NCBI RefSeq assembly: GCF_014633365.1
Contig: NC_068344.1
Span: 32,243,170-32,307,169 of the forward strand
Reading direction: 5' to 3'
Source: Diospyros lotus
Taxonomy: Eukaryota; Streptophyta; Magnoliopsida; Ericales; Ebenaceae
DNA: 64,000 nt
Of this stretch, positions 9,247 to 17,650 are shown piece by piece (the first letter of the stretch is position 1; the number at the start of each line of letters is the position of its first letter). The translations under genes and the position numbers were made by a program. The notes beneath the pieces were generated by a model that saw only the letters and a list, made by a program, of their open reading frames with translations, ran no database searches and was not told the origin of the DNA.

Positions 9247-9513
9247 GTATAATGTTACTTTTTATTTGAGTAATACTATGCAACTAAATGTATATAAATC
9301 ATAAAGAAATTACTTTTATTCGGAGTGATGTTTTGTGAAAATATTAATGTCATACGATTTTTCTAAAAAAATAATAACAATAAAATAGGATTTATTTGGT
9401 AGAATATTGATGCTCATGCTCTCATTAAATAATCAATAGAGAGTTTGTTTGTATCTCATAATAATCACCGTCTCTTTCTCCATGACACCAGCCACGAAAG
9501 ACCATTAATCAAA
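9247..9513. repeat. Left half of a duplicated segment, interrupted by the MULE
   Basis: About 265 bp closely match 25829-26060, including the shared run GAGAGTTTGTTTGTATCTC and the target sequence ACCATTAATCAAA. The match resumes on the far side of the MULE at 17406-17650. Host-type AT-rich non-coding sequence with no ORF. Confidence 0.85.
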
Positions 9514-9560
9514 GGGAAATTCTATTGGGAACCCGCCAAATTACTCAATATAACCCGTTG
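9514..9560 (+). repeat. MULE left terminal inverted repeat
   Basis: 47 bp starting GGGAAATTCTATTGGGAACC and ending ATAACCCGTTG. It matches the reverse complement of the right end except at four positions. Confidence 0.93.
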
Positions 9561-9922
9561 GACTGAATTTTTATTTTTACTCTTTGCAACCACGAGAATT
9601 ACTATTTACAACCCATAAATTCCCAAATATACCCTCACACAGCCGCACCAGCCACACAATTTCTCACATTTCTCAAACAAACCCTAGCAATCTTCGGCCG
9701 CGAGGAAGAAGAAATCGGACTGATAAATCAGGTACGCCTTCTGTTCAATGTTTAATTTCTTCAATAATCGTACATGGCGGCATCACCATCGACCGCGATG
9801 GCAGCCACCATGGCCGCCATCATCACCACGAACCTCCGCACCGCGAGGTGCGGGGGTTTTAGAAACCCCCTTCCTGGCGGCGACGATGGCAGCCGCCATG
9901 GCCGCCATCGTCAGTCGCGGAC

Positions 9923-10113
9923 CTCCGCACCGTGAGGTGCGGGGGTTTCAGAACCCCCCTCCCCCATCGGCGACGATGGCAGCCGCCATGGCCGCCTTCA
10001 TCAGCCGCGATGGTGCCACCATCGCGGCTGATGAAGGCGGCCATGGCGGCTGCCATCGTCGCCGCTAAGGTGGGGGAGGAGGGTTCTGAAACCCCCGCAC
10101 CGCGAGGTGCGGC
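9923..10113. repeat. Long imperfect palindrome with a perfect 46 bp-arm core
   Basis: The core arms 9969-10014 and 10018-10063 are exact reverse complements around a 3 nt spacer. The inverted repeat extends outward with small indels, with GTGCGGGGGTTTCAGAACCC on the left and its complement on the right. The block is GC-rich in an AT-rich element. Related units (CCGCACC-GAGGTGCGGGGG, GCCGCCATGGCCGCC) recur from 9770 to 10150. Open frames across it are compositional. Confidence 0.9.
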
Positions 10114-10498
10114 GGTCTCAGAGACCCCCGCACCTCACGGTGCGGGGGTCCGAACCCATTCCGGTTCTCGAACCCGCAATTCCGGGTTGGAGAAACCGGA
10201 ACCAGATTTATTAATAAATGTATAATTATATATTTATTTTTTTAGTTTTGTGCCATTTGAATTTTTTTTAAAATATGATTGATTTCATATTAATCTCACA
10301 TGTTATTTTTTATATTAATTATAATTTTACAGTTCACCTTTCTAATAAATCTAATTATTATTAATTTTATTATAAACAATTTTATTTGTCATAATGCATT
10401 TAGACATTTCATATAACATTCTTATATGAATTAAATTAATTTTGTAGTAGATTACTATTATTTTAAAAATGACTAATATGGTACATTCATTTATAGGT

Positions 10499-12678
10499 AT
10501 GGCACGTACTCGAGGAGGAGGAGTAGAGGGAGCTCGTCAGCGTCCGACAGCTTCCACGAGGAGGAGGGTAGAGGGCCATGATGGTCATTTTGTGGCTGAT
10601 ACATCTATTTCAGAGGCGCACATTTCTGAGCAGCCAGGTACTTTGGACTCATCACCTCCTAGTCCTCCAGAGCAGCCATCTACTAGTGCTCCGGAGCAGC
10701 CATCTACTAGTGCTCCGGACGATACTACCGAACTATTTTTGGGAGGCCCTGAAGATCCATCCATTTTAAAGAGTTTTAAAAATCATGTTGCTGTTAGCAT
10801 ATGGGCTGGAGAGGTAAGTGATTATAAAAATAATTTTACATTTAAAATAATTATTATAATGTTAGTAATTATTTTATTATTTTTATGTAATAGGAAAGAG
10901 GTGTATTAAAGTGTAATAGCCATGGACAAAGAATTCCTGATTGGCCATTGGCAAATCAGCAACGTATTTATGATATTGTTGTAAGATCTCAGTTAGCACC
11001 TTTGATAGAATCCACGTATCGATTTGTGAATCCTACAGTTGTGTCAGCCTTTTCAGAGAGATGGCAACCTGAGACTAACACATTTCATCTACCATTTGGT
11101 GAGATGACACTTACGTTAGATGACGTTGCCACTATTCTGAAGATACCAGTTGCTGGCAGCCCTGTATCAGTCCCTCATTTGACAGGTAATGAAGCTCAGA
11201 ATTTACTTTGTCGTTTACTTGGGGTCTCAGTAGTAGAAGCAGCAGGCCAGATAGCTGAGACTCGGGGACCGTATGTGAAATTAGATTGGCTGAGAAGAAC
11301 ATTTATGAACGTACCAAATTCAGCTCCAGATGAAGAGATGTACAATGCTAGTAGGGCATATTTGTTATTTTTATTAGGTTGTACATTATTTGTGGATAAG
11401 AGTGGTACCATGATTTCGATTTCCTATCTTGCATTGTTGGAAGACCTAAGTATATCTGGTACGTATGCATGGGGGGCTGCTTGTTTGGCATATTTATATA
11501 GGCAGCTAGGTATCGCGAGTAGAAGAGATGTCAAGGGAATCTGTGGATATTTAACATTACTTGAGGTAATAATTTAAATTTTATTATTTTGTGCATATTT
11601 TTACTATGTCTTTCCATATATCTTAACAATTATTTACATTAAATGTATACAGGCTTGGATATACGAACATTTTCCATTGACTAGAAGTAAACATAATTTA
11701 TCATATACTGACGAGCTGCCTAGGGCTCATCGCTGGCTTCCTGTTCGTGAGTACGATTCTTTGCAATCTTTGCGAGAGCGACTTGATGACTTAATTGAAG
11801 ATCAGGTATTCTGTTCACACATTATATTTTGCAACTTAATATTGCTCATCATTGAAATTCTAAAACATGTGCAGGTCATATGGACACCATATAGGAGGCA
11901 TCGTGCACAACACCCACTCCATGAGATTGCGTTCTTCTCCGGATGTCTTAAGTGTGGAGGCGTGATTGAGCCATATCATCCGGAGAGGGTTCTGCGACAA
12001 TTTGGGCATAGGCAGAATATACCTCCACCTCCATTATCTCCTATTGAAGCCAAGCGGGGTAGAGCTACGACAACATATAAGGTAATTTATGATTTTATCA
12101 ATGATAGTTGGTCTCGCTGGGATTTTCACTTATTGCCAGCACACCGTCGGGGTGGACTTGCCCTAGTGCCATGGGAGTGCAGTGAAGACTACTTGGCATG
12201 GTATCATCGCATTACACATCGAGTCATACAAAATCCTACAAATAGATCCGGGTTTGACAGAGGTGATCATGATAGAGTGACTCTTGCTGATGTGGTAAGA
12301 TTAATTTTGTAATTGTAATTTTTTTAAATATATTATGTTTAGTTTTTTATATTTAAAATAATTGTCTTGTAGCGCATCATGGCATCACTATCTCCTCTTA
12401 GGCAAGTCATATCAGGTGGATCCACTCAAGATGTAGATGCGTGGAGACGGGCATGTCTTCAGGTATATGATATTTTGACTATTCGTACTGGGTCTTCTTC
12501 TACTGGGTCTCATGCATATACAGTATTTCGCGAAGCACCTTCTAGTATGGTACGAACACCGACGGTGGTTACATCACCTCCGGCAGTAAATATAAATCCA
12601 CCACCTACGAGTTCAGATCCATATCATCCAGCCCCAAGCCCCCCTCAAGAGACAAGAAAAAGGACTGATAGAGATTAA
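10499..12678 (+). CDS. Plant mobile domain (PMD, MAIN-like) protein, five exons, inside the MULE
   Basis: Inferred exons are 10499-10813, 10894-11565, 11653-11805, 11875-12294 and 12373-12678. All four introns (68-87 nt) have GT-AG ends, all junctions are phase 0, and the product is 621 aa. The start chosen is ATG GCA CGT ACT (MARTRGGG), a typical N-terminus for this family; an upstream in-frame ATG exists at 10469. An acidic, proline/serine-rich N-terminus has a short repeat (EQPSTSAP twice). The PMD core follows: RIPDWPL, FHLPFGEMTLTLDDVATIL, a middle helical region (YLLFLLGCTLFVDKSG, YLYRQLG), then VIWTPYRRHRAQHP and WDFHLLPAHRRGG. The C-terminus is low-complexity proline/serine. PMD proteins include the nuclear MAIN/MAIL1 silencing factors, and many PMD genes sit in transposons. 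Its role here is unknown. Confidence 0.88.
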
Positions 12679-13441
12679 TTTTTTTTTGTAATATGAGACT
12701 ATTTGTATTTGCTATAGTGAGTAGAGTCTTATCTATTTGACTACTTATGATGAGGTTCGGATATGTCGCTAAGATATAAATGGTGCCAACCCTTTTCTGT
12801 TTGGATTTAATTTTCTTAGTTTATTTAAAAATTATTTCTATAACTCGAAAAGTAATTTTATTGTTACTAACAAAACTTATTTTAAATACTTATATGTGAT
12901 ATAAGTGATCTATAAAATAAGATATTATAAACTTATTTACATCAGACTCCTTTATATCATAAACTTTAATTATGGGTCAATTAAATCAAATATATCTTTG
13001 TGAAATAGGTTTGTGAATAGGAAATATATAAAACAAGATATTAGTGCAATATAATTCACAAAATAAAATGCAAAAATATATATAAAGTATAGAAAGGCTC
13101 AGATATGAATAACAAATCACCACTTAAGTAACTCCAAAAATAAGACCACTAAGCCCAACGAAACCCAGCCCTGAATCGCCCAACTGTCCTCCTCTCTCGG
13201 CCGAAATGATGGCTATCATACGTAATGGGCTAGGCTTCTCCATCTCTTGAGCAAATGGACTTATGCCCATTTCTCCTCTAAAGAGATAGTAAATAGGCTT
13301 ATGGACTTCAAATTGGGCTGCCAATAAGTGGTGATATGAGTTAATGTTTCAATCACGGGCTGAAGCCTATGAAAATTAAACTTGCCCGAAAAATCATCAT
13401 CGCCTTAAGCCGTATTTGGAAACACAATCTAAGAGTAAGAA
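12679..13441. other. Convergent intergenic region of the MULE
   Basis: The two genes of the element converge here, so both 3' ends and poly(A) sites should lie within it. The sequence is AT-rich up to about 13110. About 13240-13400 is related to 44730-44900 outside the MULE (shared ATTTCTCCT, GCTGCCAAT-AGTGGT and CTTCAATC-like blocks), so a dispersed repeat has been acquired. No ORF is convincing. Confidence 0.6.
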
Positions 13442-16400
13442 TCATGTGTCAGATAAGTCAAAAACTTCCTGTGTTGCCACATCTTGACCTACTAGAGATA
13501 AAAATGCTTGAATTCTGGATATGTATGGCGTTTCCCAATCACGTGCATTATCACATCGAAATCTGTACCAATTCAGTGCGACGGGAGGAATTGGTGACCT
13601 TGGCTTAAGGAATACCTGATAAATGACATATGCAACAAAAATTATTATTAAAACAAACGTATGAAATCCACAATATAAATAAATAAATACCAAAATAAGT
13701 AAGAATACTTGCACAAAATGACAATCATTCACAAATCCTATAGTAATCATCCTGTGTTGTACTGCTGGAGGAGGGATCGATCTAAGTGGAAGATATGTAA
13801 GACACTGGATCCGTGACAAATGCACCAATACGACATTGTATTTTGAAGCAACTAAATGGCCCATGTCAGGTAAAGTCATCCAATGCTCGCACGGTGCAAT
13901 GTTATCAAAGCAATATAATATATGTAGTAACTCATCCACACGCATTTCTGATCCATATATTTGCGTATACATCGCACGAAAAGATTGCAACTCTCCTATC
14001 AGACTAAAACGAATATCTCTCCAATTGTGCTCACTCATACCAAGTAACCCTGCTATCGCGCGAAATCCACAATGTCCATCTGATTCTACATTAACAATAT
14101 TATGCAAGAACGGTTGTATTTGTGGTGGGAAACAATCATCATACCCCTTGAGTCGGTTGGTGTTTCTCTTGGATATCCATGTTGCTAGGGATCTACTGTC
14201 TTGACTAGATTGAACTATTTCAAATAAGGACGGATCACGTTTGGTGGATGTATCAATCTGAATTTTCTTCTTCGATGTTGGCCTACCCTTCGTCCTAACT
14301 TTCATGGTTGGTGGTTGTAGTGAAGTTGTGTCTGGATTAACTATTTCTCTCAACTTTTGCTTTAATACTTGCTTCCCTGGCTCCGGTTCTGAATAAAACA
14401 TTTTATATATACTCTCTATTTCTGGCTCAATCGTTACCTGCGATGACACACCATCATAAGCTGACTGCACTAACTGCAACCTTGTCCAATGAGGATGCAC
14501 AGTTGACAAAGGAATTGGCCGTCCTTGTACCATGAACTCTGCAATTTCATGTGCACAAGGTAAACCATATGTGCTTCTAATCACACATCCACATGAAACT
14601 TTGTCTATCCCAATTTTATAAGCAAGTTGCGACTGCATTAGTACCATATTCAATGCACTTCTCGATATAACACCTCGCAATTCTCTAAAAATTGCTGGCT
14701 TGAAGTTATGTTGCACCAACATTAAACTTTTTTCAAACGACCCCTTAATCTCTACATGTTGTAACTCAATAAGACTGTTGATAATTGTCCATGATGACTC
14801 TAAGTCACCTTGAGAAGATCCAAGATGTCTCTTCAACTTTGCATGTGCACTCTCAGCCCTGTTCGTAGTAACGTTGCCAAAATGCATTATTCTATTTGTC
14901 CATGCTGCAACAAATTTTTCTTTATAATCATTCAACCATGTATTTCTCAGATAATTAAGTGCGCCCTCATATGCATAGTACTCAAGTGTTAACTCATACA
15001 GACGACGTTCATATTCATCCTCAGTCGACGCAAAAACAACCAGGTTCCAACTTAACATAAATTTCTCCCATGTCTCCTTTCTATCAAATAATTTCTTACA
15101 TTTGGCGAGCACATTTTTTGATATATGCCACCTACACAACAAGGTGCTCGTGGTTGGAAACACTTTTTGTATTGCATTCATTAATCCCAATTCTCTATCA
15201 GTTACAATTACTCCTGGACATGTATTGTGAGTTATTAGACTCTTTAATTTCTCCATTGCCCATGTGTAATTATCCTCATATTCATGATCCATAAATGCGA
15301 AAGCAATAGAAAAAGTTAGCTCAGTTGACGTCACACCAACGATCTCTAGCAGTGGATACTTATATCTATTAGTTTTGTATGTACAGTCCATTATTAACAC
15401 ATGGGGAAATGTTTTAAATAACTCTATAGCCATCGGATGAGCCCAAAATAAGTCTGTGATACAATCTGATAATGTATCACTTCTATGCCACTCCACATAA
15501 TTACAATCTTTCAATTTTTTCATCAACTGTTGTATTTGTGATCGACCACCTTTATCCATGACTCTATATCTTTGCCGTGCATTATATATAGTTTTGATGG
15601 TACTCACATTTTTTTTATCTTCTGCCTTTAACGTCATTAAAATATTTCTTGGCTTCACAAGATTGTTAGACATTGTTATCATAATTTGTTTCTCTTTCTC
15701 TGTAAGTCGGCCAGCATATGAATGACCCTCAAGTTGAGCTGCTGGTAAATGATTGTGCAATCCACATACAACTTTCAATATCCAGTATTCATTTGACAAT
15801 TTAACACCAAGTAACTCAAATGGACAACCACACTTTTTTGAACCTGTCATCCTACGATTTGTTTCTCCTATTGTCTCATCTCCTTTTTTTGATGATTTAT
15901 ACTTTCCACTCCGTTCACAAGCAAGACGAACTCTAGGTTTTCTTCCTATACCACCAGATTCAGAACCCTTTATAACAATAACCATTCTATTTTCTTTTCC
16001 AACTATCTTAACCCATTCGATCAGTGTTTCCCTATTACTGAAAATCTGATTCGTAACAAAAGTTTGACTAGCATCAAACGATACGCCATTCTCATTCTCA
16101 AAATTCTCTAAATTTTGATGATCAAATCCCTATTATCAAAACAAAAATAGGATACATAAATTAAAAATGGGTTGTGCTTTAACCAAAATATGAATAAAAA
16201 TATATGAATTAAAAATAACAAAATGGATAATGAAATCGGGTTCGGGCCATTCGAAAAAAAATAGAGATCACCCTCGGGTTCGGGAACCCTCGGGTTACCG
16301 ACTCGTTACAGTCGGGAATCCAAGCGTTCCCCGACTCGCATCTGTCGGGGAACGCTTGGGTTCCCGATTGTAACGAGTCGGGAACCCAAGCGTTCCCCGA

Positions 16401-16983
16401 CAGCTGCGAGTCGGGGAACCCGAGGTTTCCCGACTGTAACGAGTCGGGAACCCTCGGGTTCCCCGACTCGCAGCTATCGGGGAACGTTCTGGTTCCCTAC
16501 TCTCTCGAGTCGGGGAACCCAAGGGTTCCCGACGGCTAAGAGTCGGGGAAGCCGAGCTTCCCCTACTGTAACTCTTCGGGGAACCCGAGCTTTCCCGACG
16601 TATTCCAGTCGGGCATACCCAACTTCCCTGACTGGTCGAGGAAGCTATGTATGCTCGACTGGAATGCGTCGGGGAAGCTCGGGTTCCCCGAAAGTTACAG
16701 TCAGGGAACCTGGGTATCCCCGACTGTAATGTGTCGGAAGCTTAGCCGCCATTCATGTAGTAATTCTCAGCATCAGTTAGCCATTCATGTAGTGATTCTC
16801 AGCATCATGCATCAATCTAAAATACATTACCAGAATATTGACGTGCTGCTGGTGTGATTCATTGTAAACGTGCTGCTGGTGTGATTCATTGTAGTCCACC
16901 TGCTCATTATGCACGATCTGGTGCTCATCATCTTCTCCATAAAACTCTTTCCATCTCATCAATTTTTGGATATAATCATCCAT
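13442..16983 (-). CDS. MULE transposase-SWIM-OTU protease fusion, three exons
   Basis: Inferred exons on the minus strand are 16983-16831, 16129-13709 and 13615-13442. Introns are GT-AG with phase 0 junctions, and the product is 915 aa. Order: a short N-terminus (MDDYIQKLMRW), a FAR1-like zinc-binding region (KKCGCPF, CGLHNHLP), and the MULE DDE transposase with D at about 299 (LIMDCTYKTN), D at about 362 (VIVTDRELGLMNA) and E at about 477 (TNRAESAHAKLKRHLG). A SWIM finger follows (CGC...CAHE, about 564-578), then a linker with a KGRPTSKKK basic motif, then an OTU cysteine protease with D735 and C738 (SDGHCGFRAIA) and H855 (NDCHFVQV). All key residues are present. The transposase should bind the TIRs and cut and paste the element; OTU domains remove ubiquitin-like tags. 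The 93 nt second intron is in frame and stop-free. Confidence 0.92.
16265..16740. repeat. Inverted-repeat array inside intron 1 of the transposase gene
   Basis: Alternating direct and inverted copies of a short unit (GTCGGGGAACCC, GGGTTCCCGAC, AACGCTTGGGTTCCCGA) run for about 470 bp. They contrast sharply with the AT-rich surroundings. The whole array lies in the 701 nt intron between 16830 and 16130 and could fold into many hairpins. The apparent ORF across it is compositional. Confidence 0.8.
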
Positions 16984-17234
16984 AGAGAAAAGTTAAAATT
17001 AACAGAAACAAGAAGAAGGTAATCGCTATAAGTGATTAGAATCAGAAACCTTCGCAAATGTTTAGTGAAAGTGATCGGAGATGGGGCTGCGAAACTTAAA
17101 ATCAGAAACGTTCGTAAAAATTTAATGAAAGTGATGAGAGATTGGGTTGCGAAGAGTTAAGAAAGTAGTTGAAAAAAAGTAGTTAGGTAAGGGTAATAAA
17201 GGCTTTTTAATGAAGGGTAGTTGAGGAATTAAAA

Positions 17235-17281
17235 CAACGGGTTATATTGAGTAATTTCGCGGGTTGACAATAGAATTTCTC
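17235..17281 (-). repeat. MULE right terminal inverted repeat
   Basis: 47 bp, read inward on the minus strand as GAGAAATTCTATTGTCAACC... It is followed on the plus strand by the second TTAATCAAA copy at 17282-17290. Confidence 0.93.
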
Positions 17282-17650
17282 TTAATCAAACTATATTAGA
17301 CTGGAGGGGGCCCATAGCCATTAATAAGTGCCCCACTTTCATAAATAATTATCTGCACGTGCCCCACAAATATATATATATTTTTATTTTCCCACTAACT
17401 TTTAAATTATTTTGAAATGCGACATATATCCAGTCATGGACAATGCTCATTGCTTTTCTTTCCTTTTAAGCAATAGTTAAATCAAGAAACACGGAGACCA
17501 CTCCATCTAGACATATACTCACATTTTCATGTGTTTCACGTGGTTGGAGATATATGCATAAATAACGGAACTTACGTTTTTTTATATCAAGTTTATGCAT
17601 AGTTTTATTTCTTAATTAAGTTTAAAAGATGCTTATGACGAGATTTATTT
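17282..17650. repeat. Right half of the duplicated segment
   Basis: After the second target-site copy, a tract of about 115 bp (17291-17405) has no counterpart in the paralogue. The match then resumes (TTTTGAAAT-CGACATATATC, CATTGCTTTTCTTTCC, CACATTTTCATGTGTTT, TTAATTAAGTTTA) up to about 17650, paralleling 26068-26355. Confidence 0.85.

Follow-up and report, generated by a model that had tools for sequence, protein, structure and literature searches.

The 64,000-nucleotide window of Diospyros lotus DNA analysed here holds a MULE in which a transposase gene with an OTU domain lies beside a separate gene for a plant mobile domain (PMD) protein. The locus raises the question of whether this pairing is a single odd insertion or the mark of a family, and of what the PMD gene does for the element. 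The complete MULE is 7,768 bp in length (9514–17281; Table 1) and is recognizable as such by a 9-bp TSD (MULE range 8–10 bp), TIRs, and a DDE transposase with a SWIM finger. The structural reading of the initial annotation was borne out throughout: the 9-bp duplication is perfect, the TIRs match at 43 of 47 positions, both multi-exon genes have open frames, the DDE and SWIM motifs and the OTU residues (D735, C738 and H855) stand at their expected places, and the PMD core is present. The element is an intact MULE with defined borders, in which the PMD gene is separate from the transposase-OTU gene.

Table 1. Features of the element and its borders, in window coordinates.
Feature	Position	Strand	Evidence
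Left TSD, 9 bp, TTAATCAAA	9505–9513	.	Identical to right copy, 17282–17290
Left TIR	9514–9560	+	43/47 match with right TIR
Left subterminal array, upstream of PMD gene	9759–10208 (borders approximate)	.	GC 0.66
PMD exon 1	10499–10813	+	ATG, GT donor; length 297–345 in nine copies
PMD exon 2, PMD core	10894–11565	+	PF10536, E 2e-42
PMD exon 3	11653–11805	+	Open frame, phase 0
PMD exon 4	11875–12294	+	Second part of PF10536 matched by the frame that holds exons 3 and 4, E 6.3e-16
PMD exon 5 with stop codon	12373–12678	+	Open frame
Transposase-OTU exon 3 with stop codon	13442–13615	-	Public model P0002 spliced at same junction
In-frame intron within OTU region	13616–13708	-	GT...AG; absent from public model P0002
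OTU domain, exon 2 part	13709–14179 (start approximate)	-	D735, C738, H855; runs on into exon 3
Transposase-OTU exon 2	13709–16129	-	Open frame; N-terminal region, DDE, SWIM, most of OTU
SWIM zinc finger (CxC...CxH)	14549–14596	-	CGC...CAH motif, by eye
MULE DDE domain	15113–15400	-	PF10551, E 1.3e-26, residues 244–339; DDE motifs located
Transposase intron 1	16130–16830	-	Phase-0 GT donor and AG acceptor
Right subterminal array inside transposase intron 1	16259–16738 (borders approximate)	.	33/66-bp units, TCGGGGAA x11
Transposase exon 1, 51 aa	16831–16983	-	Inferred: ATG at 16983, open frame to GT donor
Right TIR	17235–17281	-	43/47 match with left TIR
Right TSD, 9 bp, TTAATCAAA	17282–17290	.	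Perfect repeat of 9505–9513

The PMD gene, on the + strand, encodes 621 aa in five exons, all in phase 0, with GT-AG introns and a frame open throughout. Exon 1 forms a variable N-terminus and includes a 24-bp repeat (10653–10724). Exon 2 places the protein within the PMD family, with a PF10536 score of 146.1 bits against a cut-off of 34.9, and the phase-0 intron that ends this exon sits at the same place as in DUF1985 genes.

The transposase-OTU gene lies on the - strand and encodes 915 aa in three exons, also with an open frame. Of ten copies examined, eight had a located exon 2 acceptor, and the start string of exon 1 was present in all eight. The protein also matched PF00872 (E = 1.5e-5), and the N-terminal region of exon 2 gave a weak FAR1 match (E = 0.053) that fell below the FAR1 cut-off. 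Sequence-profile searches of the transposase gave no match to the Pfam OTU family up to E = 1; the OTU assignment is supported instead by the predicted fold of the C-terminal region, which is that of an OTU domain. The D, C and H residues were each kept in at least 90% of 72 aligned rows (C330 and H447 in P0002 numbering). More than 130 residues of the OTU region were covered in 98 of the 120 best listed transposase homologues and none in 12, and on these comparisons the OTU-bearing transposase is as widespread as the PMD group of the element. The public names of OTU transposases include 'PKS-NRPS hybrid synthetase cheA-like', 'FAR1-RELATED SEQUENCE' and 'OTU domain-containing'.

Within the 630-Mb D. 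lotus genome, 20 further loci were retrieved with the element's left end as query, together with L029, a member of a distant subfamily (subfamily II). The first 187 bp of the element had 41 matches in its own genome, six of them at ≥99% with the window's own counted. Perfect 9-bp TSDs were found at 16 of 22 loci, window included, and 15 of these were distinct because L015 and L016, which have TSD and flanks in common, represent one duplicated insertion. The six loci lacking a perfect TSD (L010, L023–L026 and L028) were nested or truncated copies or could not be resolved. Of the 20 copies retrieved with the left end, seven aligned over >7.1 kb at 98.5–99.5%, and L012 and L013, on separate contigs and with different TSDs, diverged by 0.05% over 5,636 bp, indicating very recent movement. 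With the transposase read from the exon 2 acceptor onward, both genes were open in four of ten copies examined (window, L012, L013 and L016). A stop interrupted the transposase of L009 and L011, the PMD was broken in L015 and L017, and the PMD of L022 was open, L022 and L029 having been examined in part only.

The association of the two genes extended well beyond these copies. Two transposase searches, with 1022 and 812 first-look candidates (51 and 121 scored) and 68 and 122 matches, were merged into 128 loci, and 144 PMD loci were merged from 150 listed of 151 matches. A convergent PMD lay within 15 kb at 105 of the 128 transposase loci, and within 6 kb at 94; PMDs in the same orientation occurred at three and divergent ones at none. 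When PMD coordinates were shifted by 50–500 kb as a control, six trials gave 0–2 pairs. Unpaired loci numbered 23 of 128 for the transposase and 39 of 144 for the PMD, and truncation and unscored candidates may explain many of them. In this multi-copy family, which has transposed recently, the transposase-OTU gene is accompanied by a convergent PMD gene and moves with it, and the genome-wide census rules out a single odd insertion. The concern that PMD and transposase genes might be found elsewhere only as separate elements did not hold in the D. lotus genome. The initial annotation had called the pairing unusual, which is wrong in the sense of a single oddity, since the element belongs to a large, old and recently active family; its interpretation is partly supported, as it names the right kind of element but draws the scope too narrowly. 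The element is a new MULE variant.

The window element carries two palindromic GC-rich arrays that had escaped the initial annotation; one precedes the PMD gene and the other lies within transposase intron 1. Single-strand folding gave z scores of -24.8 for the left array (TRF period 90) and -28.8 for the right array, and TCGGGGAA did not occur in the remaining 56 kb of the window. The left GC-rich stretch measured ∼285–775 bp in 15 complete subfamily I copies and ∼215 bp in L029; eight copies at least 98.5% alike spanned the former range, from ∼285 bp (L017) to 775 bp (L012). Between L012 and L013 it differed by ∼260 bp in length, although the two copies are otherwise nearly identical. GC-rich stretches occur towards both ends in the lineages examined, flanking the gene pair on both sides in the window element, L029, L040, L041 and L042 (for L040–L042, judged relative to the gene pair), and the commonest 8-mers were unlike between these five.

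Comparison of the window element with subfamily II (L029, which has two stops per gene as aligned) gave dS values of 0.95 (PMD core), 0.73 (transposase part) and 0.87 (OTU), with dN/dS of 0.21, 0.21 and 0.19, respectively, and similar values with other borders. The corresponding dN/dS values were 0.24, 0.23 and 0.19 against L040, and 0.30, 0.32 and 0.17 against the more broken L042. Among close copies dN/dS was higher and noisy (PMD core 0.15–0.66), as expected if many copies are decaying. Both genes are under purifying selection, and a dN/dS of ∼0.2 at dS 0.7–1.0 across PMD, transposase and OTU implies that their association is old within this lineage. The gene modules are not locked together: L041 pairs a transposase and OTU near subfamily I (dS 0.27 and 0.30 against the window element) with a PMD at dS 0.91 from that of the window, about as distant as the subfamily II PMD. 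Exchange of the PMD gene between lineages would be the simplest account of L041.

In a tree built by a quick method, with several long branches flagged, the element PMDs fell into a wide group with long branches, which comprised 45 of 61 rows and included Cinnamomum, Acorus, Papaver, Stephania, Rosaceae, legumes and Camellia. This group stood apart from the host MAIL2 group with an SH-aLRT of 100, in a tree without certain PMD-A or PMD-B references. The separation, together with an identity of ∼34% between the element PMD and host MAIL2, rules out a recent capture of host MAIL2. A candidate linkage of PMD and transposase in Camellia, based on one contig size (1421859) common to the P0090 and P0173 matches, was compatible with chance by a rough estimate and was rejected. 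Soybean and other chromosome-size contigs were also common to the two lists of 120 homologues, and carry little information. Transposon-borne PMD genes, MULEs included, have already been published, as transposase fusions in grasses and Amborella (PMC5418596, in part), and PMD-C is said to be mainly genic in eudicots (PMC7156037, in part).

Structure prediction offers a lead on the function of the PMD. The protein modelled was P0121, a close public relative of the window PMD with one in-frame intron retained, and its predicted fold matches that of VANC21, a DNA-binding protein through which the MULE VANDAL21 escapes silencing. Of the features of the VANC family, a DUF1985 domain above the Pfam cut-off was not found: P0121 gave no match, and five of ten PMDs in the same test did match. 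Weak DUF1985 matches occurred in 44 of 87 relatives (best E = 1.1e-4), and the comparison of profiles drew on three DUF1985 sequences only, two of them nearly identical. A search of PDB sequences with the PMD profile up to E = 10 returned 26 sequences, all CBP/p300 chains (best E = 0.32), and VANC21 was not among them. No publication joining DUF1985 with the plant mobile domain was found in a literature search that did not reach the VANC21 structure paper (9LNJ). The earlier suggestion that the accessory domains could oppose host silencing gains support from the fold match of the PMD, from which we infer the anti-silencing activity itself; the companion suggestion, that OTU protects the transposase, is a guess.

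The element is probably, if by no means certainly, a two-gene MULE that mobilises itself and carries an anti-silencing gene of its own. The PMD would bind the subterminal arrays, as VANC21 binds its own repeats, and would remove or block silencing marks over the element, allowing expression of the transposase. The transposase would cut at the TIRs, and OTU might remove ubiquitin either from the transposase or from a protein involved in silencing or chromatin. Several observations argue against this reading. In Arabidopsis the host PMD proteins MAIN and MAIL1 promote silencing (PMC5418596 and PMC7156037, in part), the PMD profile missed VANC21 in PDB, and the modelled P0121, a relative and not the window protein itself, lacks a DUF1985 match. 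Compared with the VANC21 motif the array units are longer, and they are palindromic, loci of both kinds are in part unpaired, L029 contains stops, dN/dS among close copies is noisy, and L041 carries a distant PMD.

Some of the same evidence can be read in other ways. The PMD could be a transposition helper like mudrB of MuDR, with the arrays as binding sites of the transposase or helper and not as anti-silencing targets, as the convergent two-gene layout near the TIRs, the GC-rich stretches towards both ends and the coupled selection on PMD and transposase would allow; the predicted PMD fold, however, matches an anti-silencing protein, and we hold the helper role to be rather unlikely. Silencing could also be opposed genome-wide and without binding to the element's own DNA, if the PMD were a decoy acting on the host MAIN/MAIL/PP7L silencing complex, either as a competitor or as a poison. 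Host PMDs do act in silencing, and an anti-silencing role for TE-borne PMDs has already been suggested as a possibility (PMC5418596 and PMC8616336, in part), but a decoy would not need the arrays, and the distance of the element PMD from host MAIL2 in both tree and identity makes such a role unlikely.

If instead the OTU protease were the main accessory function, shielding the transposase from ubiquitin-dependent degradation while the PMD served only as a DNA tether, then the breadth of the OTU region among the best listed homologues, the conservation of D, C and H, and the predicted OTU fold would be accounted for, but PMD conservation and the VANC21 match would not, and we judge this improbable. 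A PMD gene carried without function, as a host fragment captured by transduplication, would be in keeping with the capture of genes by MULEs and with the PMD-C capture inferred in grasses and Amborella (PMC5418596, in part). This reading is highly improbable and already close to refuted by the linkage at 105 of 128 transposase loci, the dN/dS of ∼0.2 over a dS of ∼0.95, the position of the element PMD outside MAIL2, and the copies with both genes open.

The predicted likeness of the PMD to VANC21 is the most valuable point of this analysis, as it provides a testable function for the element and for the wider PMD family. Because the structure of VANC21 with its target DNA has been solved, the test is direct: PMDs should bind specific DNA. 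Published accounts treat PMD as a domain without a known function (PMC7156037 and PMC8616336, in part), and the fold match would suggest a function for this large and poorly understood plant family, whose host members control silencing, meristems and gene expression. Specific DNA binding would also agree with the 'DOWN' motif in the promoters of MAIN/MAIL1-dependent genes (PMC7156037, in part). More tentatively, PMD and VANC (DUF1985) may form one superfamily of sequence-specific DNA-binding proteins controlling silencing, in which host silencing factors such as MAIN and MAIL1 share their fold with an anti-silencing protein, and the two-gene PMD/transposase-OTU MULE may be an old, possibly angiosperm-wide, self-desilencing transposon with coevolving PMD and arrays. 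The element adds a second MULE lineage for the study of anti-silencing, in the persimmon genus, where near-identical copies point to recent movement. Some public 'MAIN-LIKE' gene models, P0121 among them, are transposon genes.

VANDAL21 (Hiun) of Arabidopsis is a MULE and, judging from the modelled fold, resembles the window element in pairing a transposase gene with a gene of the VANC fold. Both have fast-changing repeats in noncoding parts, whose place and behaviour in the window element are read directly from the sequence. Tandem repeats that change fast, situated upstream of VANA21 and within introns of VANB21 and VANC21, are described as the targets of VANC (PMC8756742, PMC5735166 and PMC10398659, in part). 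These motifs are short and tandem, whereas the arrays of the window element are palindromic with units longer than the 9-base VANC21 motif. VANDAL21 differs further in having three ORFs (VANA, VANB and VANC) instead of two genes, in a VANC that carries DUF1985 where the window element has PMD, and in the absence of OTU, present in the window transposase, from the available parts of its description. The PMD-C MULE fusions of grasses and Amborella also show a MULE-borne PMD, but there it is fused to the transposase, whereas the eudicot window element has a separate, convergent PMD and a transposase with OTU (Ikeda et al., 2017; PMC5418596, in part). Plant MULE transposases with a C-terminal OTU have the same domain order as that of the window, with ≤53% identity over nearly full length outside Diospyros. 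Finally, MuDR of maize is an autonomous two-gene MULE with convergent genes, a 9-bp TSD and long TIRs, and its second gene, mudrB, convergent with the transposase, is needed for insertion; mudrB is not known to be a PMD. The window element is like MuDR in its two convergent genes and 9-bp TSD, and differs in having TIRs of ∼47 bp in place of long ones.

The related locus L041 of the Diospyros lotus genome carried a transposase near subfamily I, the group of the window's own element and its close copies, together with a PMD of a different lineage, a mismatch that is a sign of modules having been swapped between elements.

In public gene models, an AWS-SET pair, which is of the histone methyltransferase type, was found N-terminal to the transposase in homologues of the transposase-OTU protein from Rosaceae (P0018, P0020, P0023, P0025, and P0080) and Phlomoides (P0084). 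These proteins were MULE-OTU-type, except that the OTU part was not seen in P0080. Identity between Rosaceae and Phlomoides was ~69–73% for the AWS-SET part and ~39–42% for the remainder of the proteins. The arrangement may represent either a true fusion or a gene-model chimera.

Coordinates of the features discussed (G000, D. lotus genome)
Feature	Location	Strand	Remark
L041	G000:C15:28153200-28160200		
Non-LTR reverse transcriptase-like open frame	window:4849-7107		judged by eye
24-bp repeat, PMD exon 1	window:10653-10724		encodes variable peptide repeat
Open frame, 561 aa	window:18302-19987	minus	~1 kb right of element; presumably DUF247-like gene
Candidate copia-like element, open frame	window:27658-30819		judged by eye
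Candidate gypsy-like gag, open frame	window:41266-42909		judged by eye

A PF09331 search of the D. lotus genome gave at least 150 DUF1985 (VANC-type) matches (150 of 324 candidates scored), many of them without stops. Among copies of the element, PMD exon 1 ranged from 297 to 345 bp, and its variable peptide repeat recalls VANC proteins, in which regions of tandem peptides likewise vary.
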